From Planctopirus ephydatiae (lineage in GTDB: Bacteria > Planctomycetota > Planctomycetia > Planctomycetales > Planctomycetaceae): DNA of 64,000 nucleotides. The position numbers and the translations under genes were made by a program. Numbering within the stretch: the stretch's first letter is position 1; every line of letters starts with the position of its first letter. The notes below the pieces were generated by a model. It was not told where the DNA came from. It did not search any database and was given only the letters and a program-made list of their open reading frames with translations. The stretch lies in assembly GCF_007752345.1 (NCBI RefSeq), contig NZ_CP036299.1:1689001-1753000 (forward strand), read 5' to 3'. This document shows positions 2,640 to 15,881 of this stretch, piece after piece.

Positions 2640-4058
2640 TTAGCGAGTGGCCTTCCCAGATGTGCCCGACGTCACATGGGGAGCTTCCGCAAAGTGCAAT
2701 GGCTGTGCCTGGTATTTCACCACATCGGCACCGGGATAGTAATGCTGCACAATGCCTTGAGCGGTGAGGCCTGTTTGTGCCAATCCACGAGCCCCCCACT
2801 GGCAGAAACCCACGCAATGGCCGCTCCCCTGGCCTTCGATTTCAATCTGATCGTTGGTGAGCTTCAGCGAAAACTGAGGACTGGGAAGCTCCCGAGTTCC
2901 GAGCATACGACGCAGTTCAATCGAAGATAACTGCTGGAAGTTACGACCATCAGTCAAGGTAAAGGTCGGTAAACTCCCTTTGCTATCCTGCCGCATGCGA
3001 ATGGTCATGAGAGTCGCGAGGTTCGCGGGAGGCATCGTCGAGAGGTCGGCAGACTTTCGAGAATCTGAGAGTTTCTGCAACAGATCCTGCCCGGAGATAC
3101 TGGCTTGCCAGCGGTAAAGAGGTGCGTTGCGGCACCCCTCGCAAACAACACTCTTCAGGCAAGGCGCAGTGCGTTGGGACATTGTCTGTCCATCGAGAGT
3201 TCTGCCACCGCAAACGGCTGAATAATAGCTGGTGATGATCTGCCCTTCGTAGGTTACGACCATGCCGGCAGTGCTTTGTGCGGCAGCCATCCCGGCAGCA
3301 GTTTCTCCTTTGAGGCGACGACCTTCGCGATTGATGTATTCCGCCCCGAGATACTTTTGACTGCGGGTGGAAGCGAAGACATCGAATAATGCGGAGGGGA
3401 GAGCGGTTTTGTGCCGGGCAATGGCATAGGTGCGTGCGACAATCGCTTGTGCGCAGCGGGCCTCCTGAGGAAAAGTGGCTGGCATTTCACTATCGACGAC
3501 GGTCGCCACATAAGTTTCCAGGGGAACATGATTCACGAGAGAGAACGTGGGTTTAAGTTTTAAGCCTTGTTCAGAGCCAGTGCGGTGAACTGTCATCGAG
3601 CCGCGATAGAAATGATTGTCGAAGCCCAGCAAGGCATTTCCCTGAGGAAGAATGCGGATCGCGGATGTATCGAGCAGATGCGGCCCAACTCGTAAACCCG
3701 TTGGCATGGCCTCAATCGTGGCTGCTCTCAAGAGTTGACCGTGTGCCAATGGTCGTCCGGTGATGAAATCGTGGATGATGTAAGGTGCCGCACATTCCAC
3801 AGTGGCTGAGGAGAGCAGCCCTTCGTGTAAAACAACACGAATCTGCTGCGGTTCAAAGCGGGAAGTTGTGGCAGAACCAGGGATCCCTCCGGAGGTGAAG
3901 CTACTGCGGCGAACATCGACATCGACCAGAGGCCGCAGTTCGGGCGAACGACTGCGCAATTGATGGAGGCCAGCCAGCATGACGAGAAGAAAGATGCCGG
4001 GAATGATCATCAAAACAGCGGCTGTCGAATCCTTACGATGGCGGAGCTGAGCTGGCAT
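2640..4058 (-). CDS. SpoIID/LytB-domain protein, membrane anchored
   Basis: A 472-residue protein with a hydrophobic segment at about residues 12-31 (VLMIIPGIFLLVMLAGL), so it is probably anchored with its main part outside the cytoplasm. The centre carries the SpoIID/LytB signature: VDSEMPATFPQEARCAQAIVARTYA, in which the Glu of SEMP matches the catalytic Glu of SpoIID lytic transglycosylase. Towards the end GHCVGFCQWGARGLA matches the conserved GHGVGMSQ region, with Cys in place of some usual residues. Members cut or modify peptidoglycan glycan strands stripped of stem peptides. The start at 4058 is preferred because AAGGA lies 7 bases upstream; another ATG is at 4094. It lies 56 bases upstream of the alcohol dehydrogenase gene. 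Confidence 0.85.
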   Translation of the reverse strand: MPAQLRHRKDSTAAVLMIIPGIFLLVMLAGLHQLRSRSPELRPLVDVDVRRSSFTSGGIPGSATTSRFEPQQIRVVLHEGLLSSATVECAAPYIIHDFITGRPLAHGQLLRAATIEAMPTGLRVGPHLLDTSAIRILPQGNALLGFDNHFYRGSMTVHRTGSEQGLKLKPTFSLVNHVPLETYVATVVDSEMPATFPQEARCAQAIVARTYAIARHKTALPSALFDVFASTRSQKYLGAEYINREGRRLKGETAAGMAAAQSTAGMVVTYEGQIITSYYSAVCGGRTLDGQTMSQRTAPCLKSVVCEGCRNAPLYRWQASISGQDLLQKLSDSRKSADLSTMPPANLATLMTIRMRQDSKGSLPTFTLTDGRNFQQLSSIELRRMLGTRELPSPQFSLKLTNDQIEIEGQGSGHCVGFCQWGARGLAQTGLTAQGIVQHYYPGADVVKYQAQPLHFAEAPHVTSGTSGKATR

Positions 4059-4226
4059 GACGCATCCTTGCGAGTGACCGGCAGGGCTAAACATGGACGG
4101 GACTGGCTCTGCTCAAAGAATTTATCGAGCCAAACGAGGCCAAGCCGCGGTCAAGATTAGGCGTTTTTGCACTTTTGAACCAGACAAGTTTGGTCGATGG
4201 CCAGGATGGATGATCGCTGTCTGGAT

Positions 4227-4315: not shown

Positions 4316-5671
4316 TTAGTCGTTTCGAAGCTTGAGGTTGTGTTCCGTCAGCTGAGCCCGAATTTCGTTCAGTGAAGTCACCCCGAAGTTCTTGGTGGCC
4401 AGAAGTTCGTCGGCACTCTTTTGTACGAGTTCGCCAAGAGTACCAATCTGGAGCCGAGCCATACACTTGCGGGCTCGCACCGAAAGATTCAGATCCGATA
4501 CTGGACGACTGTGGAGAGCCTGCTCCTGTGGCGAAAGATCGTTGCCAATCGGGGCAAATGCCGAAGCCGGCATCCCGGCCCAAGTGGCATCGCGAGCCTT
4601 GCTTGGCTGGAGATTCTGGCCAACTTTGAGGCCGTGCTGCTGCATGAGATCGCGGATTTCCACCAGCGATGTTTCACCAAAGTTTTTACCCTGGAGAAGA
4701 TCACTTTCGCTGACGCGAGTCAGGTCGCCCAGTGAATGAATATCCATACTGGCCAGGCAATTGCGGCTGCGAACTGAAAGCTCAAAATCGGTGACTGGAC
4801 GGCTGAGCAACTGAGCCATACGGGCTTCGTTGCGAGCCATGTCGTCATCGTAATACATTTCCTGGGTGGCTTCGATATCTTTCATGTACATGCGGGCACG
4901 CACATGATTGGGGTCGAATGCCAGAATCCTGCGAAAACAGAAAGCTGCCGAGGCGTAGTTGCCACGGTCTTCGTACAGGAGGCCCAGGTTCAGCATAGCT
5001 GAAAGATGATAGGGCGGACGGGAAAGAGCCTGCTCGTACAAACGAATCGCTTCTGTGTCGTTGCCGTAGAGAGCATTCTGTTCAGCGAGGCGGAAGAGCG
5101 CCTGGCTGTGATGAGGATCCATATCGACGGCACGCTCGAAATACTCAATCGCACCGTAGGTGTCGCCTCGATCTGAGAGAATGCAGCCCATCTGATACGA
5201 GTATTCAGCGCGGCGGGCACCTTCTGTTCCGGATTGACGGACAGCTTTTTCCGCTTCATCGAGCTGACCTGCCAGCCGGATGGCACCAGCACGCTTCAGT
5301 GTGCATTCGACGGGGTCGAAACCAGCTTTTGCTGCGGCAGCGAACTTTTCAGCAGCGGCCTCGAATTGATCGAGTGCCTGCAGAACATGCCCATGGGCAT
5401 AAAGGGCCACAGGGTCGGTCGTTAAACGAGAAAGAATCTTGTCAGCAATCGCATGCTGCCCCAGCAGCCAGGCACCGATCCCGGCACGAGAGGCGGGCCC
5501 GATCTCTTCTTTGCCTGCTTCCACTTCACGGATCAGGGCTTCCAGCTCAACTCGGGTGGAAGCCACCTGGTCACCGGCAATCGCCCGGCGAAGCTGTGCC
5601 AGATCGTCAGCACTTAAGGAGTTCTTACCACTCAGAATTGCACGAACGTCAACCGCTTCCAAAGACTTCAA
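4316..5671 (-). CDS. TPR protein with two C-terminal RNA polymerase alpha-CTD-like domains
   Basis: 451 residues from an inferred TTG start at 5671 (GAGG five bases upstream). No in-frame ATG precedes the TPR region. The frame stays open to a TTG at 5761, but that extension encodes a hydrophobic stretch that would make a cytoplasmic-type protein look secreted, so I doubt it. Residues about 88-260 form around five tetratricopeptide repeats (for example EYSYQMGCILSDRGDTYGAI). Two copies of an RpoA C-terminal-like module follow at about 290-345 and 388-446, each with S-R-P-V-[ST]-D-[FL], LSVR[SA]R, a GxLxxL helix, KNFGxTSLxEIR. In RpoA this fold binds UP-element DNA and activators. A role in transcription or in protein scaffolding is inference only. 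Confidence 0.85.
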   Translation of the reverse strand: MKSLEAVDVRAILSGKNSLSADDLAQLRRAIAGDQVASTRVELEALIREVEAGKEEIGPASRAGIGAWLLGQHAIADKILSRLTTDPVALYAHGHVLQALDQFEAAAEKFAAAAKAGFDPVECTLKRAGAIRLAGQLDEAEKAVRQSGTEGARRAEYSYQMGCILSDRGDTYGAIEYFERAVDMDPHHSQALFRLAEQNALYGNDTEAIRLYEQALSRPPYHLSAMLNLGLLYEDRGNYASAAFCFRRILAFDPNHVRARMYMKDIEATQEMYYDDDMARNEARMAQLLSRPVTDFELSVRSRNCLASMDIHSLGDLTRVSESDLLQGKNFGETSLVEIRDLMQQHGLKVGQNLQPSKARDATWAGMPASAFAPIGNDLSPQEQALHSRPVSDLNLSVRARKCMARLQIGTLGELVQKSADELLATKNFGVTSLNEIRAQLTEHNLKLRND

Positions 5672-6088
5672 GGTCGCCTCGCACTTTTTCGCATGTATTA
5701 CGGCTAATGGCAGAATTACCACGAACACGAAAGAATAAACAATCCGAACTGCTGACTGCAACTCTGACCAAAGAATGCGCGATAGCCAATCAGCAACATT
5801 CGGTTGACCATTTGAGAGTTTCCTTCGCCAGAATCGCCTGGAATCAAGCTTCGATCGGGATAAACGCTAAACTGACCGGAAGAAAAGTGGTCAGGTGTAT
5901 ATATTCAGCAAACGCGCGGAATTCAAAAATCCTGTCGAAAGAAGATTGTCTTTCCTAACGTTTCTATTCTCTGGTATCTCGCACTCTTCAAAAACTCCAT
6001 TTATGGCATGGAACTTGAGTGTTTGAAATTGTTCGTGCTGTTGCTCGGCGGAAGTTTGTTCGTTCACAAAAATGGTGCGGAAAGTTTT
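5672..6088. other. Non-coding gap between divergent genes
   Basis: About 417 bases between the start of the TPR/alpha-CTD gene and the zinc-ribbon gene. It should hold the promoters for both directions, but I could not single out a convincing -35/-10 pair. Nothing else seen. Confidence 0.4.
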
Positions 6089-6452: not shown

Positions 6453-9011
6453 TCAGACGGTGGCTTCACCAGTGGCGACTTCGGCGACTGCCACAGCAGC
6501 TTCTTCCGTCTCGACGCGGGATGGTTCGAACTCAAGATGCTTGAGTTCTCCCACTTCTTTGACGATGACTTCCACTCGATTACTCCCCTCAAAAGAGCCT
6601 TTGAGTAACTCTTCCGCGAGTGGATCTTCGATGTAGTTCTCGACAGCACGGCGAAGTGGGCGGGCACCGTACTCGGTAGCGTTCCCCTTCTCGACGATAA
6701 ACTCGCGGGCAGCATCACTCATCACAAGTTCAATATTCTTCTCAGCAAGTCGCTCTCGAACTTTGGAGAGTTCGATATCGACAATCGACTTGAGATGGTC
6801 TCGAGTGAGTGGCCGGAAGACAACGAGTTCATCGAGGCGGCCCAGGAATTCGGGCTTGAACTCATGCTCAATTTCGTGCATGAGCCGCTGCTTCATCCGC
6901 TCGTAACTCGAATCTTCATCCTGCTTGCCGAAGCCAAAGGTGTTCCCCTGGCTGATGACCTTGGCACCGGCATTGGTCGTCATGATGAAGATCGTATTCT
7001 TGAAATCGACCTTGCGACCAAAGCTGTCGGTCAAATGTCCTTCTTCCATAATCTGGAGCAGCATGTTGAAGACATCGGGGTGTGCCTTTTCGATTTCATC
7101 GAGCAGGACCACGGCGTAGGGCCGGCGGCGAATTTTTTCGGTGAGCTGGCCACCTTCTTCGTAACCGACATAACCGGGAGGTGCCCCGATCAAGCGGCTC
7201 ACGTTGTGCTTCTCCATGTACTCAGACATGTCGATCTGCACGAGGGCGTCCTGCTCACCGAACATGAATTCGGCCAGCGTCTTGGCGGTCAAAGTCTTAC
7301 CGACACCAGTGGGCCCTGCAAACAGGAAGACACCAATCGGTCGCTTGGGGTCTTTGAGTCCCGAGCGACTGCGGCGCACAGCCTTGGCCACCTGTTTAAT
7401 GGCTTCTTCCTGGCTGACGACCCGCTTATGAAGTTCCGCTTCCATCTGCAGCAGACGAACTGCGTCTTCACTCGAGAGACGTGTCAGTGGAATCCCAGTC
7501 ATCTTCGAGACAACTTCGGCCACGACTTCCGCATCAACGACGCCATCTGTCTCTTTGGACTTTTCACGCCACTCGCGATTCAGATTTTCTTTTTTCTTTT
7601 TGAGCTTGTCAGCCTGATCACGCAGAGCGGCTGCCTTCTCGAAATCCTGATTCGCAACGGCTTCTTCTTTCGCTTGATTGAGCCGTTCGACTTCGTCTTC
7701 GAGTTCCTTCAGATCGGGTGGACGCACCATGGATTTCAGCCGAACGCGAGCACCGGCTTCATCAATCACGTCGATAGCCTTATCGGGCAGGCAGCGCGAT
7801 GTGATGTATCGGTTGGAAAGTTCGACGGCCGAGGCCAGTGCATCGTCGGTAATCTGCACGCGATGGTGCTGCTCGTAGCGATCGCGCAGCCCCTTGAGGA
7901 TTTCGACGGTCTGAGTCGCACTGGGCGGCTCGACATCCACACGCTGGAAGCGTCGTTCCAGAGCGCCATCCTTCTCGATGTACTTGCGGTACTCATCGAG
8001 AGTCGTGGCCCCAATACACTGAAGTTCGCCACGGCTGAGCGCGGGCTTGAGCACGTTGGAAGCGTCGATCGCTCCTTCGGCACCGCCAGCACCCACCAGT
8101 GTGTGCAATTCATCGATAAAGAGAATCGTGTTCTTCGCACGCTTCACTTCATTCATGACCGCTTTAATGCGTTCTTCAAACTGACCGCGATATTTCGTCC
8201 CTGCGACCATCATGGCGAGGTCGAGAACCACAATCCGCTTGTCGCGGAGAAGTTCGGGGACAGCACCATCCACCACCATCTGGGCAAAGCCTTCGACAAT
8301 GGCGGTCTTGCCGACACCGGCTTCACCCAGCAGCACAGGGTTGTTCTTCTGACGTCGGCAAAGAATCTGGATGACGCGCTCGATTTCGTTCTCACGGCCA
8401 ATCACCGGATCGAGTTTCGATTGACGCGCGAGTTCGGTCAGATCGCGGCCAAAGCTGTCGAGTGCTGGTGTTTTGCTCTTCGAGCCTTTGCCAGAGGTCG
8501 AGCCACCCGTTGAAGAGCCTGCTCCAGCCGTCGCGGGATTGCCGCGTTCGCTGGTCCCTTCGCTGCCTTCAATGCCATGGCCCAGAAGATTCAGCACTTC
8601 TTCGCGGACATCTTCCAGCTTGAGCCCGAGATTCATGAGCACTTGAGCAGCAACACCTTCCTGCTCGCGGATGAGACCCAGCAGCAGGTGTTCGGTTCCC
8701 ACATAGTTATGGTTGAGGTTGCGCGCCTCTTCCATGGCGTACTCGATGACCTTTTTGGCACGAGGTGTCTGGGGAAGCTTCCCCATGGTGACGAGTTCGG
8801 GGCCGCTCTGGACGATCTTTTCAACTTCGAGCCGGATCTTGCGAAGATCGACATCGAGATTTTTCAGAACGTTTGCCGCAACACCCGACCCTTCCTTGAC
8901 CAAGCCGAGAAGGATGTGTTCAGTCCCGATGTATTCGTGATTGAACCGCTGAGCTTCCTGATTGGCAAGCTGCATGACTTTTCGAGCGCGATCCGTAAAA
9001 CGTTCGTACAC
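6453..9011 (-). CDS. clpC: ATP-dependent Clp protease ATP-binding subunit ClpC
   Basis: 852 residues, typical for ClpC. It is a Hsp100 AAA+ unfoldase that feeds proteins to ClpP in the cytoplasm. The double Clp-N repeat is at residues 1-145 ([11 protein letters not shown] and [11 protein letters not shown]). The first AAA+ domain has Walker A GEAGVGKT and the Walker B region [18 protein letters not shown]-type middle segment follows ([34 protein letters not shown]). The second AAA+ domain has GPTGVGKT and [16 protein letters not shown] Gly/Ser/Thr-rich linker at about 150-180 separates Clp-N from AAA1. The ATG at 9011 gives [13 protein letters not shown], the usual ClpC start. The gene is divergent from the Clp-N/ThiD2/ThiE fusion; I find no CIRCE element in the gap. 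Confidence 0.97.
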
Positions 9012-9424
9012 AGCGATTCTCCGATAGTGGAGGGTAGGTCTCCAGTGTCACGTGGCCAGAACTGGCAACCTGCAAGTCGCCTGCGAATGCAGGCTGGCAG
9101 ACAAGTTATACCTTTTTCTGCGACCACTCATAACGATTCCATTCATAATTCAGCAGTTTGCATGCCATGAATCGTGGTTGGGAGTCGTTCTGACGTGTTT
9201 TTGATTCTAGTGGTGGCCAGTGAGTCAGACAAGCTAGACCTTGCCGGTTGTTGAACGACGGAAGTGTAATGCCGATTTTGATATAAGACTGTTTTCGGCT
9301 GGGTGTGCACTGATTGCTCGGGAGAGTCTTCGCCTGGATTTGCAGAAACGATTCTCCTCCTCTGAAAAATTGTTTCGATAATTCCCGAATTCCAAATGTC
9401 CAAACCGAAGGGCTTCTGCCTGCC
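9012..9424. promoter_or_regulatory. Divergent intergenic region of clpC and the thiE fusion
   Basis: 413 bases that must carry the start signals for both genes. I looked for a CIRCE inverted repeat and a TPP-riboswitch core (CTGAGA and partner) and found neither. AT-rich -10-like words (TATAAG on the plus strand near 9285, TATAAC on the minus strand near 9110) are present but not decisive. Confidence 0.4.
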
Positions 9425-11017
9425 ATGGAACACTTTCTGACAGCCGCTGCCCTGCGTGTCATCGAAGCGGCTCGCGGTCTGACTGATGCAACGGTTATGG
9501 CGCCCGTGACGCCCGAGGTCTTTTCGCCACACGCCTCAACGGCCCGGTTAGACAGTGACCAGGTGGTGGAAGCGGCTTTGTTCTGGGCACTTCTGGAAGA
9601 AGAATCCGTCGCCCATTTGAGGATGATCGAACAGGGGCTTGAAATTGATGACCTGCGTCAACGCATGGAGCGTTTTCTCCCCAGCCTGCCATTTTCCGCC
9701 AGTGATGAGACAGATCTGCAGTCTTCGCTCTCGACCTCTTTTGACCGCATGATCCGCCAGGCCCGCCACGAAGCCCACAAAGTTTCGCGGTCGGAAGTGG
9801 GGACTGAGCATCTGCTGAGAGCACTGTTTGAAACGAATGGCTGGCTGACGGCGTGGCTCGCTCAGGAACAGATCGCACTGGCGAAACCTGTCGAGGAAAT
9901 CTCTGGGCCCGCCACTTCTGCCAGCGGGGCACCTCTTGAACACGAAGAAATTTTGTTACCGGAAACCGCACCGCCTGAGAATCTAACAGCGGTGTATCGT
10001 CTGCTCGATGCTTCCGGTAATCGAGCCCGTGAGGGATTGCGGGTCATCGAAGATGCTGTCCGCATGGTGCGAAATGATGGCTGGTTCTCTCGTGAACTCA
10101 AAGAACTCCGGCATCGGCTGACCACCGCTCTACGCATGCTCCCCGAAGAGGCTCTGCTCGCCAGTCGAGATACCCCCAATGATGTCGGCACGCAGATCAC
10201 GACGATGTCCGAAACCACGCGAGGTTCTGCCAACGATGTCATTGCGGCGGCTTTCAAACGTCTGCAGGAATCGCTGCGGTCGCTCGAAGAATACGGCAAA
10301 ATCATCAATGGTTATTTTGCTTCGCGGATCGAAGCGATTCGCTATCAGTCTTACACGCTCGAAAAGGCTGTGCGAATCGGGCAGTTCTCACAGAAAACAC
10401 TCGAAGGACGGGTGCTCTATTTATTACTGAGCGAAAAACTATGCCAGCGTCCGGTGGGTCAAACTTTGCGGGAAGCATTACGTGCCGGTGTGGGGATTGT
10501 GCAAATCCGCGAGAAATCGATGTCGGATCGCCGCCTGCTCGATCATGCCCGGCTCGTTCTGGATCTGGCCCATGAATACGATGCCCTTGTGATAATGAAT
10601 GATCGACCGGACTTGGCCGCCCTGACTCAAGCCGATGGTATCCACGTCGGGCAGGACGAACTGACCATCGCCCAGGTGCGTCAGATTACGGGGCCGAGGC
10701 CACTGGTGGGAGTATCGACACATTCTCTCCAGCAGGCAGAAGCGGCAGTGATTGAAGGGGCGAGCTATATCGGCGTGGGCCCGACCTTTCCGACGACGAC
10801 CAAAGAGTTTGCCGAGTATGCAGGGCTGGAATATGTGCGTGAAGTGGCCCGGGAGATCGCACTCCCGGCGTATGCCATTGGCGGTATCACCACTGAAAAT
10901 GCTGCCGAAGTAGTCGCCGCCGGTGCCACCCGCCTCGCCGTCTCCAGCGCCATCTGCTCAGCCAATGAACCCTACGATGCAGCACGCCATTTGATGGAGA
11001 TTTTGAATGGTGCATAG
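9425..11017 (+). CDS. thiE: Clp-N-like / ThiD2 / ThiE fusion: thiamine-phosphate synthase
   Basis: 530 residues from the ATG at 9425. Residues about 325-530 are a full thiamine-phosphate synthase, the TIM-barrel enzyme joining HMP-PP and the thiazole phosphate: IVQIREK, MNDRPDLA, DGIHVGQ, GVSTHS, YIGVGPTFPTTTK and AIGGI are all present. Residues about 188-315 match the ThiD2 domain (RLLDASGNRAREGLRVIEDA, RDTPNDVGT, KRLQESLRSLEEYGK), known fused to ThiE in several phyla. Residues 1-150 are unusual: VSRSEVGTEHLLRALF at 120-136 resembles the Clp-N repeat of ClpC, which is encoded divergently next door. The frame also allows a TTG at 9314, but no domain lies in that extension. No thiamine riboswitch is visible. 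Confidence 0.9.
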   Translation: MEHFLTAAALRVIEAARGLTDATVMAPVTPEVFSPHASTARLDSDQVVEAALFWALLEEESVAHLRMIEQGLEIDDLRQRMERFLPSLPFSASDETDLQSSLSTSFDRMIRQARHEAHKVSRSEVGTEHLLRALFETNGWLTAWLAQEQIALAKPVEEISGPATSASGAPLEHEEILLPETAPPENLTAVYRLLDASGNRAREGLRVIEDAVRMVRNDGWFSRELKELRHRLTTALRMLPEEALLASRDTPNDVGTQITTMSETTRGSANDVIAAAFKRLQESLRSLEEYGKIINGYFASRIEAIRYQSYTLEKAVRIGQFSQKTLEGRVLYLLLSEKLCQRPVGQTLREALRAGVGIVQIREKSMSDRRLLDHARLVLDLAHEYDALVIMNDRPDLAALTQADGIHVGQDELTIAQVRQITGPRPLVGVSTHSLQQAEAAVIEGASYIGVGPTFPTTTKEFAEYAGLEYVREVAREIALPAYAIGGITTENAAEVVAAGATRLAVSSAICSANEPYDAARHLMEILNGA

Positions 11018-12176: not shown

Positions 12177-13397
12177 ATGAACGGGCTGGTGTACCATGTG
12201 GTGAGCGGGCAGGCCTTCTTTTCTGGGATGGCCTTGTTGCTTGCCAGCTTCGCGCTCGCACAGGCATCTCGCAAAGCCTGGAAGCGATGGTGGGGGCTTG
12301 CCTTTGTGATGGGGCTGATTCTGATCGCCGCTTCGTCGATTGCGATTCCCCTCTGGCTGCTGGTGATCGCGGGGATGGCCACACTGGTCTGGCTGTATTT
12401 ACTTATGCGGGCTGACTCATCCCGGCAGAGTGTAGCCGCCATGATGGCCGCCATCTTCTGGTTGGCTGTTGCGATCGGAGAGTTGCCGTATCTGTTGATT
12501 CCTGCACTTCAGCCTGTGGCAAATCGCGGCCTGGCGGTGATTGGAGATTCCGTCACTGCGGGGATGGGTGGTGAAGATCGATTCGAAACGTGGCCGGCGA
12601 TCATCGCCAGAAAACATCAACTGCAGGTCCAGGATCTCTCGCATGTCGGCGAGACAGCGGGGTCGGCACTCAAACGGATCCGGAATCTGGAGATTCAGGC
12701 TCCCGTCGTGATGGTCGAGATTGGGGGCAACGATATCCTCGGCTCCACCAGTTCACAGCAATTCGCAACAGATCTGGATGCGCTGCTCAACCGGCTGAGT
12801 GCACCCGGGCGGCAGATCGTGATGTTCGAATTGCCCCTGCCGCCGCTCTATCATGAATTTGGACGCGTTCAGCGAACTCTGGCACAAAAGTACCGCGTCC
12901 ATTTGATTCCACGGAGAATATTCCTATCGCTGCTCGCAGATCAGGGGGCCACACTGGATAGCATCCACCTTTCACAGGCGGGGCATCAACAGATGGCCGA
13001 AAGCGTGTGGCAACTGGTGCAGACTGCATACGTCAATGCAACCAGCGAGTCGCCAGCAGAGAAACCAGCAATGAATCACACAGAGAAATTGCCCGATGAG
13101 GATTCGAACCTCAACCAAGTGATCCAGAGTCACTCGTGCTACCATTACACCATCAGGCAGTGGCGGAGTTCGCCAAATGCGGAGTCGTCTCGTTGTCTCA
13201 AGAGTTCACTGAACTGGCAGGAAACATCCGTTGAACTTGAAGATCATCACTCCGTCGGGAGGGAGTATAGCCACGGATGGCGAACAGCTAAAGTCAAACT
13301 GGGCGATTTTCTTGTTCAGGCTGGGCCGAATCTCGGGGATCGAATTTCATCTGCCCGGTCGTCCACGACGCTCCTGATGGAACCTCGATCGAGCTGA
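12177..13397 (+). CDS. Membrane-anchored GDSL/SGNH-type hydrolase, with a C-terminal extension running antisense through tRNA-Gln
   Basis: 406 residues. The first 110 contain about four hydrophobic segments. An SGNH hydrolase domain follows: block I VIGDSVTAGMGG near residue 120 (nucleophile Ser), block III VEIGGNDIL near 183, and block V DSIHLSQAGH near 260 with the Asp and His. Such enzymes remove acyl or acetyl groups from lipids or sugars; the substrate is not evident. The domain ends near residue 290 (QLVQTAYVNA). The last ~100 residues have no hydrolase features and are read through the complement of the tRNA gene (PDEDSNLN...SCYHYTIRQ is the typical look of a translated tRNA). An earlier stop has probably been lost, or a sequencing or frameshift event hides it. 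Confidence 0.75.
   Translation: MNGLVYHVVSGQAFFSGMALLLASFALAQASRKAWKRWWGLAFVMGLILIAASSIAIPLWLLVIAGMATLVWLYLLMRADSSRQSVAAMMAAIFWLAVAIGELPYLLIPALQPVANRGLAVIGDSVTAGMGGEDRFETWPAIIARKHQLQVQDLSHVGETAGSALKRIRNLEIQAPVVMVEIGGNDILGSTSSQQFATDLDALLNRLSAPGRQIVMFELPLPPLYHEFGRVQRTLAQKYRVHLIPRRIFLSLLADQGATLDSIHLSQAGHQQMAESVWQLVQTAYVNATSESPAEKPAMNHTEKLPDEDSNLNQVIQSHSCYHYTIRQWRSSPNAESSRCLKSSLNWQETSVELEDHHSVGREYSHGWRTAKVKLGDFLVQAGPNLGDRISSARSSTTLLMEPRSS
13089..13159 (-). tRNA. tRNA-Gln (anticodon CTG)
   Basis: On the minus strand the 7-bp acceptor stem TGCCTGA pairs with TCGGGCA (one T-G pair). The anticodon arm is AGTGA/TCACT with loop CTCTGGA, giving anticodon CTG, which reads CAG. The T arm TGAGG/CCTCA has loop TTCGAAT. 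The length is about 71 nt and CCA is not encoded. Confidence 0.93.
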
Positions 13398-14159: not shown

Positions 14160-15881
14160 TTAAGGATTCGAGTTTCCGGGAGAGATCTGCACACCATTGG
14201 AACTGGCGTCACTCGCCGCATTGGGATTGCCGGCGGTATCTCCCTGGGGTTGCTTTAACCGAACCAGAAGGCACTGTTCGGTCTTGTCTTTGCCAAGATG
14301 AACCAGAGCCGGTGCTTCGTCTTTGGTCAGATTGTAAAGTCCGGTTTCGTATACCGTGTTGGTGTCAGAACCGACGGTAAACGCCACCTTTTGGGTCTGC
14401 ATATCGACAGCACCAGAAATGGGGAGCGTTTTGTTCGTGCTGGAATCGACCCAGTTTCCTCGGATGATACCCGCCTTGTTCACAGCCAGTTGAACTGAAG
14501 TTGTCGAATTGGTCTGCCCACTCATCGAGAGCAGAAAGACACCCAGAGGAAGCCAATCGCCCTGATTTGTGACTGGGAGTTGATTCCCTGTATTTGCCAG
14601 GTTCGTGGCCTGATTGTAGTAATCCGCCGAGGTTCCCATGTCCTGATTATTCACATAGACCTGCCCACCCTGGTAGACAACGTTGTTGCCATAATCGTAG
14701 TAGACGGGGGGCACACCGTAAAACCCGCAATATGGAGCTGCCAGGCCCCAGGTGGCAGTATTCCATGCGGTACCAGCAGCCCAACCTGCGGCAGCCCAAG
14801 CTCCTGGATGATTCCCGTACCAGCCAGAGCCGTAATAGTTGTAGTTATTGAAGTTATTGCGGCATCCATAGGCCGTGGTATATCGACCAGTGGCCGACAT
14901 GGGGGTATAGCCCGAGGCAAAGCGACCTGCAGCAACACCGTTGGGCCCTGCAACAACCCCGCGACCGGCTACGGCCCCATCGGGTCCGCGAACTTCTTCG
15001 CCAGCTGCCACTCGGCCATTTGGGCCCACTGCGGCTCCACGTGCGGCTTCAGTACCACCGGGACCCCGGACTGCTCCCCCTGCAGCTACGCCACCATTGG
15101 GGCCGACGGCAATGCCCTGGCCCGCTGCACCACCATTGGCACCTTCAACACCTCGGCCAGCGACCATTCCGCCGTTGGCTCCCTCGACTGCTCCACGGCC
15201 ATATGTATTACCACCCGGCCCGGTCACTGTGGTGCCACTCGCCGTTGTTCCACGAGGACCTTCATATGACCCATGATTGACATCAGCATTGCTGCCAAAA
15301 CCGCCAGAGGAACTCAGTCCATGCATTCCGTCATCGGAAGGAAGTCCGAGGAAACTGTTCAGTGAGCTGCGGCTCGGGGCATTCCCATAGTTACCGAGAT
15401 CACCTCGATTGAAGGAATCACCACCGAAGTTACTACGGTCGAAGCTGCCACCACCAAGACCCTGGCTACCAAAGTTGCCGCGATCAAAGCTACCGCCGCC
15501 AAGACCTTGGCCGCCCATGTTGCTACGATCACCTCCACTACCACCGAAGTTCTGGCCGCCCATTCCGCCACGGTCAAAGCCACCGCTTCCGCCGAAGCTT
15601 CCTCCGCCACCTGATCCGCTCCGGTCAAAGCCACCACCGCCGCCGAAGCTACCGCCCCCACCACCAAAACTTCCACCTCCGCGGTCAAATCCACCGCCCC
15701 CAAAACTGCCACCACCACCGCCACGGTCAAATCCACCGCCACCGCCACCGCCACCGCCAAACCCCCCGCCACCGCGGGATCCACCACCACCGCCGCCACC
15801 AAAGCCACGAGCGTGGCATTCATCCGCGACCGTCGCGCCGACTAAGGCTGCGACGAGACAAACCCAACTGTATCGAATCAT
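14160..15881 (-). CDS. Secreted glycine-rich repeat protein
   Basis: 573 residues. Residues 1-25 form a signal peptide (MIRYSWVCLVAALVGATVADECHA). Residues about 26-165 are almost only Gly, Ser, Phe, Asp, Arg in FGGGG and FDRGG repeats. Residues about 205-320 hold a second repeat type, GPNG.VAAG..VRGPGG..A.RGA. A Tyr/Asn/Trp-rich zone follows (CRNNFNNYNYYGSGWYG), and a compact domain with hydrophobic beta-strand pattern ends the protein (PLGVFLLSMSGQTNSTTSVQLAVNKAGIIRGNWVD). Similar proteins are common in planctomycetes and are thought to sit at the cell surface; a function is not known. Low complexity makes length changes by slippage likely. Confidence 0.8.
   Translation of the reverse strand: MIRYSWVCLVAALVGATVADECHARGFGGGGGGGSRGGGGFGGGGGGGGGFDRGGGGGSFGGGGFDRGGGSFGGGGGSFGGGGGFDRSGSGGGGSFGGSGGFDRGGMGGQNFGGSGGDRSNMGGQGLGGGSFDRGNFGSQGLGGGSFDRSNFGGDSFNRGDLGNYGNAPSRSSLNSFLGLPSDDGMHGLSSSGGFGSNADVNHGSYEGPRGTTASGTTVTGPGGNTYGRGAVEGANGGMVAGRGVEGANGGAAGQGIAVGPNGGVAAGGAVRGPGGTEAARGAAVGPNGRVAAGEEVRGPDGAVAGRGVVAGPNGVAAGRFASGYTPMSATGRYTTAYGCRNNFNNYNYYGSGWYGNHPGAWAAAGWAAGTAWNTATWGLAAPYCGFYGVPPVYYDYGNNVVYQGGQVYVNNQDMGTSADYYNQATNLANTGNQLPVTNQGDWLPLGVFLLSMSGQTNSTTSVQLAVNKAGIIRGNWVDSSTNKTLPISGAVDMQTQKVAFTVGSDTNTVYETGLYNLTKDEAPALVHLGKDKTEQCLLVRLKQPQGDTAGNPNAASDASSNGVQISPGNSNP

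Follow-up and report, generated by a model that had tools for sequence, protein, structure and literature searches.

The N-terminal 160 residues of a thiamine-biosynthetic protein of Planctopirus ephydatiae are a complete two-repeat Clp/Hsp100 N domain, and by family the polypeptide as a whole is predicted to be a bifunctional HMP-P kinase/thiamine-phosphate synthase that carries this domain in front of its enzyme core. Both parts are of known kinds, and their combination is new as far as the literature was searched: no description of a Clp_N-thiamine enzyme fusion was found in the portion of the CC-licensed PubMed Central literature that our searches covered, and the arrangement may already be visible in domain databases. 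Clp_N domains, which are drug targets, control entry to bacterial unfoldases. The fusion is widespread, selected and naturally lost in close relatives, and it offers a ready comparison for the role of Clp_N without an ATPase; the same comparison bears on a possible tie between coenzyme synthesis and protein quality control. The presence of the N domain on the last assembly enzyme of vitamin B1 suggests an unstudied form of handling or control of a bottleneck enzyme.

The fusion gene and its N domain

The window, by which is meant the whole stretch of 64,000 nucleotides that was analysed, contains the fusion gene and a divergent clpC with the following features.

9425 to 11017, forward strand: Clp_N-ThiD2-ThiE fusion gene, 530 amino acids from an ATG, matching NCBIfam PRK02615
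9425 to 9904, forward strand: Hsp100-type N domain (double Clp_N repeat), residues 1-160, from hhalign, the AF2 model, Foldseek and VIA
9434 to 9682, forward strand: repeat 1, Clp_N-like, about residues 4-86 (approximate limits), with T6 and the conserved R11 and E60
9731 to 9889, forward strand: repeat 2, Clp_N-like, about residues 103-155 (approximate limits), with GTEHLL at 126-131
9908 to 9964, forward strand: flexible linker, residues 162-180, pLDDT below 50 in the full-length model
9998 to 10366, forward strand: ThiD2 (HMP-P kinase) domain, residues 192-314, PF17792 at 8.5e-39
10415 to 10954, forward strand: ThiE (thiamine phosphate synthase) domain, residues 331-510, PF02581 (TMP-TENI) at 1.1e-57
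6453 to 9011, reverse strand: clpC, the divergent neighbour, 852 amino acids, with its own Clp_N repeats at 8580-8738 and 8811-8966
9012 to 9424, no strand: intergenic region of 413 bp between the divergent clpC and the fusion gene

Assignment of the enzyme core is straightforward. The ThiD2 domain scores 133.2 bits with PF17792 (cut-off 23.5), TIGR00693 identifies a ThiE thiamine phosphate synthase at 186.4 (cut-off 145.1), and the thiamine phosphate synthase model PRK02615 covers residues 185-528 with 369.6 bits (cut-off 335) and is matched by all 38 members of alignment A2 (E <= 1e-5). A longer frame could begin at a TTG at 9314; by eye, the alignment places the start of most relatives near the 9425 position. 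The linker residues 162-180 are modelled at pLDDT below 50, so the N domain is probably held to the enzyme by a flexible tether. Where an Hsp100/Clp ATPase would have its AAA+ modules this protein has ThiD2 and ThiE, which places it outside that class of ATPases.

The first-pass annotation had proposed a Clp-N-like domain on ThiD2-ThiE from a motif within residues 123-135 (SEVGTEHLLRALF), and comparison of residues 1-160 with Clp-N (PF02861) does return a match. Within the whole protein PF02861 scores 18.8 bits, under its cut-off of 20.7, and automatic annotation could therefore miss the domain here; on residues 1-185 alone the score is 22.4 bits, above the cut-off, so that this region qualifies as a Clp_N member. 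The weakness of this single-sequence match is settled by profile methods, which are clear. An hhalign comparison of the N-terminal regions of the fusion proteins (the N-extensions) with 31 ClpC N domains, which come from the same genomes and make a template profile low in diversity, gave a probability of 97.1, E 6.9e-11 and a score of 65.9, against 8.5 with the profile reversed and at most 17.8 in 100 column shuffles. Taken singly, 40 of 41 N-termini, that of the window included, match PF02861 at E <= 0.01 (best 2.1e-14), and the proposed identity of the domain is thus borne out. Fifty-two aligned N-termini display the Clp_N pattern in two repeats. In a phmmer search of the PDB, ClpC N domains came top and ClpA N domains followed (best E 5.2e-5). 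Of 392 genomes of the phylum, 390 contain matches to a profile built from N-extensions alone, and most of the matches listed sit in frames of Clp-ATPase length; the profile gives the window's own ClpC 58.9 bits.

Structure prediction agrees with this identification. The AlphaFold (AF2) model of the N domain (pLDDT 82.9) consists of helical repeats, and the two tandem repeats are predicted to have the Hsp100 N-domain fold. Among the best 50 rows of a Foldseek search of the PDB, 44 are titled Clp/Hsp100 chains and the other six are malarial chains, which we take to be Hsp100; the Foldseek E-values are all at least 6.8e-3, and the weight is carried by the uniformity of these best 50 rows, the VIA Z-scores and the sequence profiles. 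VIA Z runs from 14.3 to 11.2 across the best 50 rows, a range to be read knowing that helical folds may reach Z 13 by chance. The top match is to an integrative ClpC model (Z 14.3, 130 residues, 3.4 A), and a ClpB N-domain crystal structure (Z 13.6) and a ClpC N domain with bound phosphoarginine (Z 12.9) are also matched.

Affinities of the N domain among Hsp100 proteins

The N-extensions appear to be nearer to ClpB than to ClpC, a lean and not a proof. A ClpB profile outscores a ClpC profile for 72 of 78 N-extensions (median 32.8 against 17.8 bits) and hhalign scores are 129.6 with ClpB and 103.2 with ClpC, but these comparisons are partly confounded by the greater diversity of the ClpB profile (Neff 3.1 against 1.9). 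Plain median identities to ClpB and ClpC are nearly equal at 22% and 21%. It is for these two reasons that the nearness to ClpB is treated as a lean. In a tree of 71 of the 127 domains (all 13 ClpB and roughly half of the N-extensions and of the ClpC, made by a quick method and with long branches) the N-extensions fall on one side of a branch with support of 91, apart from ClpC (100) and from ClpB (86).

Residues were counted in 76 distinct N-extensions, 28 ClpC and 13 ClpB domains, which remained when identical sequences among 78, 36 and 13 rows had been merged; a few near-duplicates, one gene under two identifiers, may persist among the 76. PMC12583610 places E32 and E106 of ClpC in two phosphoarginine (pArg) pockets and describes R9 and K85 as anchoring residues. 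E32, of pocket pArg2, is glutamate in all 28 ClpC and in 6 of 76 N-extensions; R9 is kept in none of the 76, and the K85 position is lysine in three and arginine in 17. In pocket pArg1, the T7 position is threonine or serine in all 76 (T6 in the window's protein), and the E106 position is glutamate in 57 and another residue in 19 (E128 in the window's protein). Judged by E32, E106, R9 and K85 taken together, the N-extensions do not belong to a ClpC-specific class of N domains. The kept threonine and glutamate were considered as a sign of phosphoarginine recognition and rejected, because the same threonine and the glutamate of STEHLL are kept equally by ClpB, in 13 of 13 N domains. These ClpB residues were equated with T7 and E109 of E. 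coli ClpB by position, not through an alignment to the E. coli protein. T7 and E109 had earlier been proposed as substrate contacts, and they lie far from the substrate in the structure of PMC6546751.

The most distinctive mark of the N-extensions is the pair R11 and E60, which hints at, and only hints at, a specific role. Both residues occur together in 71 of 76 distinct N-extensions (73 of 78 before merging of identical sequences), as against 0 of 28 ClpC and 0 of 13 ClpB. Position 11 is lysine in 26 of 28 ClpC and position 60 is glutamate in 7 of 13 ClpB; ClpC has a glutamate one column from position 60, so that the comparison at E60 depends partly on gap placement. R11 and E60 may form a salt bridge or a contact surface. 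Median pairwise identity among N-extensions is 24%, against 97% among ClpC N domains, a set that is taxonomically narrower. Because the N domain diverges so fast, a strongly conserved partner surface on it is unlikely.

Distribution, history and genomic setting

A match to the fusion protein was found in 157 of 170 genomes of the window's own family. The 130 of these 157 that were examined further (the other 27 are mostly weaker matches) comprise 112 genomes with the N domain and 18 without it, and so the expectation that the N-terminal part would be kept in relatives holds for most of the family and fails for the remainder. The carriers match the N-domain profile at E 2.6e-59 to 7.1e-13; 41 of the sequences scored (the A1 rows) went into building that profile and match by construction. 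Eighty named loci, which partly overlap the own-family genomes and from which L021 had been dropped as a duplicate of L051, divide into 24 with the domain, 45 without and 11 that were not assignable by rule, none of the 11 matching the domain profile. Carriers include Singulisphaera acidiphila and records titled Isosphaeraceae, Gemmataceae, Pirellulales and Planctomycetaceae, while records titled cyanobacteria, Gastranaerophilales, Phycisphaerae, Psychrilyobacter/Ilyobacter and others have either the enzyme in its plain form or nothing that matches the domain profile. One carrier of the fusion is a record titled Candidatus Kuenenia stuttgartiensis (L109, CAMAWN010000190.1), but phylogenetically it groups with a genome from the window's own family; its title is probably wrong.

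On a ThiD2-ThiE tree (FastTree, 200 rows of which 191 are different) the state of the domain changes nine times, compared with a mean of 53.8 when states are shuffled, and at least four changes are forced by well-supported branches. The outgroup rows are without the N domain, as is a near sister group of the window's genus (the g51 genomes). Since the outgroups are without the domain, the simplest reading is a single gain near the base of the Planctomycetia and several subsequent losses. Selection on the domain was assessed in 12 pairs of relatives, all of which gave a dN/dS of 0.12-0.36 for the N domain; the enzyme core gave 0.03-0.11 in the 11 pairs where it was computable, and constraint on the N domain is looser by a factor of 1.3 to 6.4 (median about 3). 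On the strength of these ratios the N domain is judged, from coding sequence, to be real, translated and under purifying selection. Since close relatives, 18 of the 130 genomes, have the enzyme without it, the domain is judged dispensable and not needed for catalysis. Synonymous divergence was lower in the N domain (9425-9904 and its counterparts in relatives) than in the core in 9 of 12 pairs, for example pS 0.048 against 0.246 between the window and L036.

The fusion's ThiE is the only TMP-TENI match in the P. ephydatiae genome, and no ThiD-type kinase was found there at the Pfam cut-off, the two weak matches scoring 20.3 and 19.8 against 27 bits. ThiC and ThiG are present. With one ThiE and no ThiD above cut-off, the fusion is probably the sole enzyme joining the two thiamine branches in this genome. 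According to PMC12345177, the ThiD2 family phosphorylates HMP-P, not HMP. The genome also has a PF00217 kinase, which we infer to be McsB-type. A link between McsB and the N domain was considered and set aside as uninformative, because PF00217, with matches in 158 of 170 family genomes, is near universal and occurs in genera without the domain as well. ClpS was not found in the window's own genome.

The fusion gene starts 413 bases from the oppositely oriented clpC, as the first-pass annotation had stated. The gap holds one weak promoter-like site (mean of 0.4 in shuffles) and no terminator-like site was found in it. The same annotation had asked whether the three-part order and the divergence from clpC persist in relatives. 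Of the 130 own-family genomes, 57 have a head-to-head clpC, always upstream and opposite where found, as do 9 of the 80 named loci, these nine including records titled Pirellulales and Pirellulaceae. This divergence therefore persists in part, and it does so without the N domain also: clpC is divergent in 52 of 94 testable genomes with the domain and in 5 of 18 without it, or in 38 of 80 and 3 of 16 when the count is limited to stretches that extend 3.5 kb or more upstream. The ThiD2-ThiE tree provides three independent pairs on supported branches for this contrast. The adjacency is real, and it is unusable as evidence for the role of the N domain because it also occurs without the domain and only three independent contrasts are available.

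Other features of the neighbourhood were noted. A cluster of neighbours from 57 loci holds clpC, with the ATPase motif in 49 members. Inspection by eye of the 25 largest neighbour clusters listed brought out no thi operon partner, and several of the largest look, again by eye, like antisense shadow frames. Among RNA families searched for in the 64-kb window only a tRNA reached its gathering score. Near clpC, a TPR protein at 4316-5761 (reverse strand) ends in two domains of the RNA polymerase alpha-CTD type (PF03118, 8.8e-41, two stretches), an occurrence of alpha-CTD outside RNA polymerase, and a SpoIID-domain protein lies at 2640-4094 (reverse strand; PF08486, 4.3e-22). A GDSL-type hydrolase frame at 12177-13397 (forward strand) crosses a tRNA gene on the opposite strand (13089-13159, reverse strand); since the frame runs through the tRNA gene, its end is probably not the real end of the protein. 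At 14160-15881 (reverse strand) there is a glycine-rich repetitive protein of 573 amino acids, without a Pfam match at E <= 0.01.

Possible roles of the N domain

The reading that we tentatively prefer, at less than even confidence, is that the N domain is a tethered protein-docking module of ClpB/Hsp100 type that tunes the sole thiamine-phosphate synthase. Such a domain would still fold as a ClpB/Hsp100 N domain does and possibly still have the face that binds peptides. What it docks would be a protein partner, a peptide left exposed or the core of the same enzyme, and R11 and E60, which are conserved, may be part of the docking surface. Docking could in this way set how much of the enzyme there is, how soluble it is or how active, the enzyme being the one thiamine-phosphate synthase that the genome was found to have. 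Homology and fold shared with Hsp100 proteins, the flexible tether, purifying selection, the branch that sets the N-extensions apart from ClpB and ClpC, the distribution on the ThiD2-ThiE tree, the largely kept T6 and E128 positions, the R11/E60 pair and the single ThiE, with ThiC and ThiG present and no ThiD above cut-off, are all in favour of such a module. Against it are the fast divergence of the domain, the softness of the R11/E60 mark, its dispensability, the replacement of the E128 glutamate in 19 of 76 N-extensions, and the distal position of T7 and E109 in the structure of PMC6546751. There is precedent for action without an AAA module of its own in ClpT1, which binds Hsp100s (PMC4243950), and in ClpC2, which binds its own promoter as well as a peptide antibiotic (PMC10030653). 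A more committed form, in which an Hsp100 docking domain with R11/E60 as a new surface puts the enzyme into the Clp/ClpB network as client, competitor or adaptor, seems to us rather unlikely.

The suggestion, made when the fusion was first noticed, that the domain ties the enzyme to the ClpC machine found no support in the comparisons made here: the domain is not especially ClpC-like, the contact residues are mostly lost and the adjacency to clpC occurs without the domain too. More broadly, the N domain could serve to bring the enzyme to, or to compete with, ClpC/ClpP, ClpB or their adaptors (through McsB-made phosphoarginine), and thereby couple thiamine synthesis to proteostasis. That it is a genuine Clp_N domain, that clpC is divergent in 57 of 130 genomes and a PF00217 (McsB-type) kinase present in 158 of 170, that the pArg1 determinants are mostly kept (T7 position T/S in 76 of 76, E106 in 57 of 76), and that ClpT1 offers a precedent (PMC4243950) would all fit. 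Yet the threonine and glutamate are also found in 13 of 13 ClpB and so are not diagnostic of phosphoarginine binding, E32 (6 of 76), R9 (0 of 76) and K85 (lysine in 3, arginine in 17) are largely gone, adjacency and kinase both occur in genomes without the domain, and scores are nearer to ClpB in 72 of 78, which leaves this coupling doubtful. Rapid divergence around a conserved hydrophobic core, repeated loss on the tree and the flexible linker would suit a passive module, that is, a folded spacer or an aid to solubility or oligomerisation with no specific partner, retained because the protein would be slightly less stable without it. We regard this as unlikely in view of a dN/dS of 0.12-0.36 and the retention of R11 and E60 in 71 of 76 N-extensions despite a median identity of 24%, though an internal salt bridge would also fit the latter. 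An account of origin only, in which the start of the neighbouring clpC (its 5' end) was duplicated in inverted orientation to give the Clp_N domain and the fusion is a by-product of local rearrangement, draws on the head-to-head order in 57 of 130 genomes. A ClpC-derived origin is nevertheless unsupported by the domain tree, where the N-extensions stand outside the ClpC group, and by profile scores nearer to ClpB; four carriers (L115, L122, L124 and L184, titled Gemmataceae, Isosphaeraceae or Singulisphaera) have no clpC in the stretch examined, and the sequences have diverged too far for their source to be located firmly. We hold this account to be very improbable. Least probable of all is that the domain is a sponge for, or sensor of, some small molecule or peptide directed against the N domains of Hsp100 proteins, in the manner of mycobacterial ClpC2, a cyclomarin A sponge (PMC10030653); the fold of ClpC2 is matched (8ad9, Z 12.5), but there is no evident reason for a thiamine enzyme to carry such a domain.

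Several known systems can be compared with the fusion. The fusion shares with the N domains of ClpB and ClpC (PF02861) a double helical repeat, an initial threonine in helix 1 and (G/S)TEHLL in repeat 2; it differs in that their N domains are followed by AAA+ modules, in having mostly lost E32, R9 and K85 of ClpC, and in R11 with E60, a combination absent from the 41 distinct ClpB and ClpC domains compared. Residues 185-528 resemble the plain ThiD2-ThiE enzyme (PRK02615) closely enough to exceed the curated cut-off, whereas the plain form, of about 345 amino acids and found in Cyanobacteria, Phycisphaerae, Melainabacteria and others, has no N domain. ClpT1 of plastids has a Clp_N-like fold. 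It is a small accessory protein that interacts with Hsp100s (PMC4243950), but it is stand-alone and acts on the plastid Clp protease and ClpC2/ClpD. As in the fusion, a flexible linker joins the N domain of ClpB to the next domain (PMC6546751). The fold is also that of mycobacterial ClpC2 (VIA Z 12.5), which is partially homologous to ClpC1 and is a sponge or sensor and a repressor of its own gene (PMC10030653); ClpC2 is not fused to an enzyme. The double Clp-N domain of plant SMXL proteins is also comparable, a SMAX1 complex being among the fold matches (9kkx, Z 11.4). In SMXL proteins a Clp-N domain is used outside a working unfoldase, the ATPase part being degenerate; they differ from the fusion in being regulators of hormone signalling. 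Within the phylum of the window, locus L205, which is resembled by a frame at a contig end in L201, has a frame of 270 amino acids with a ClpC-like double Clp_N domain and without a Walker A motif.
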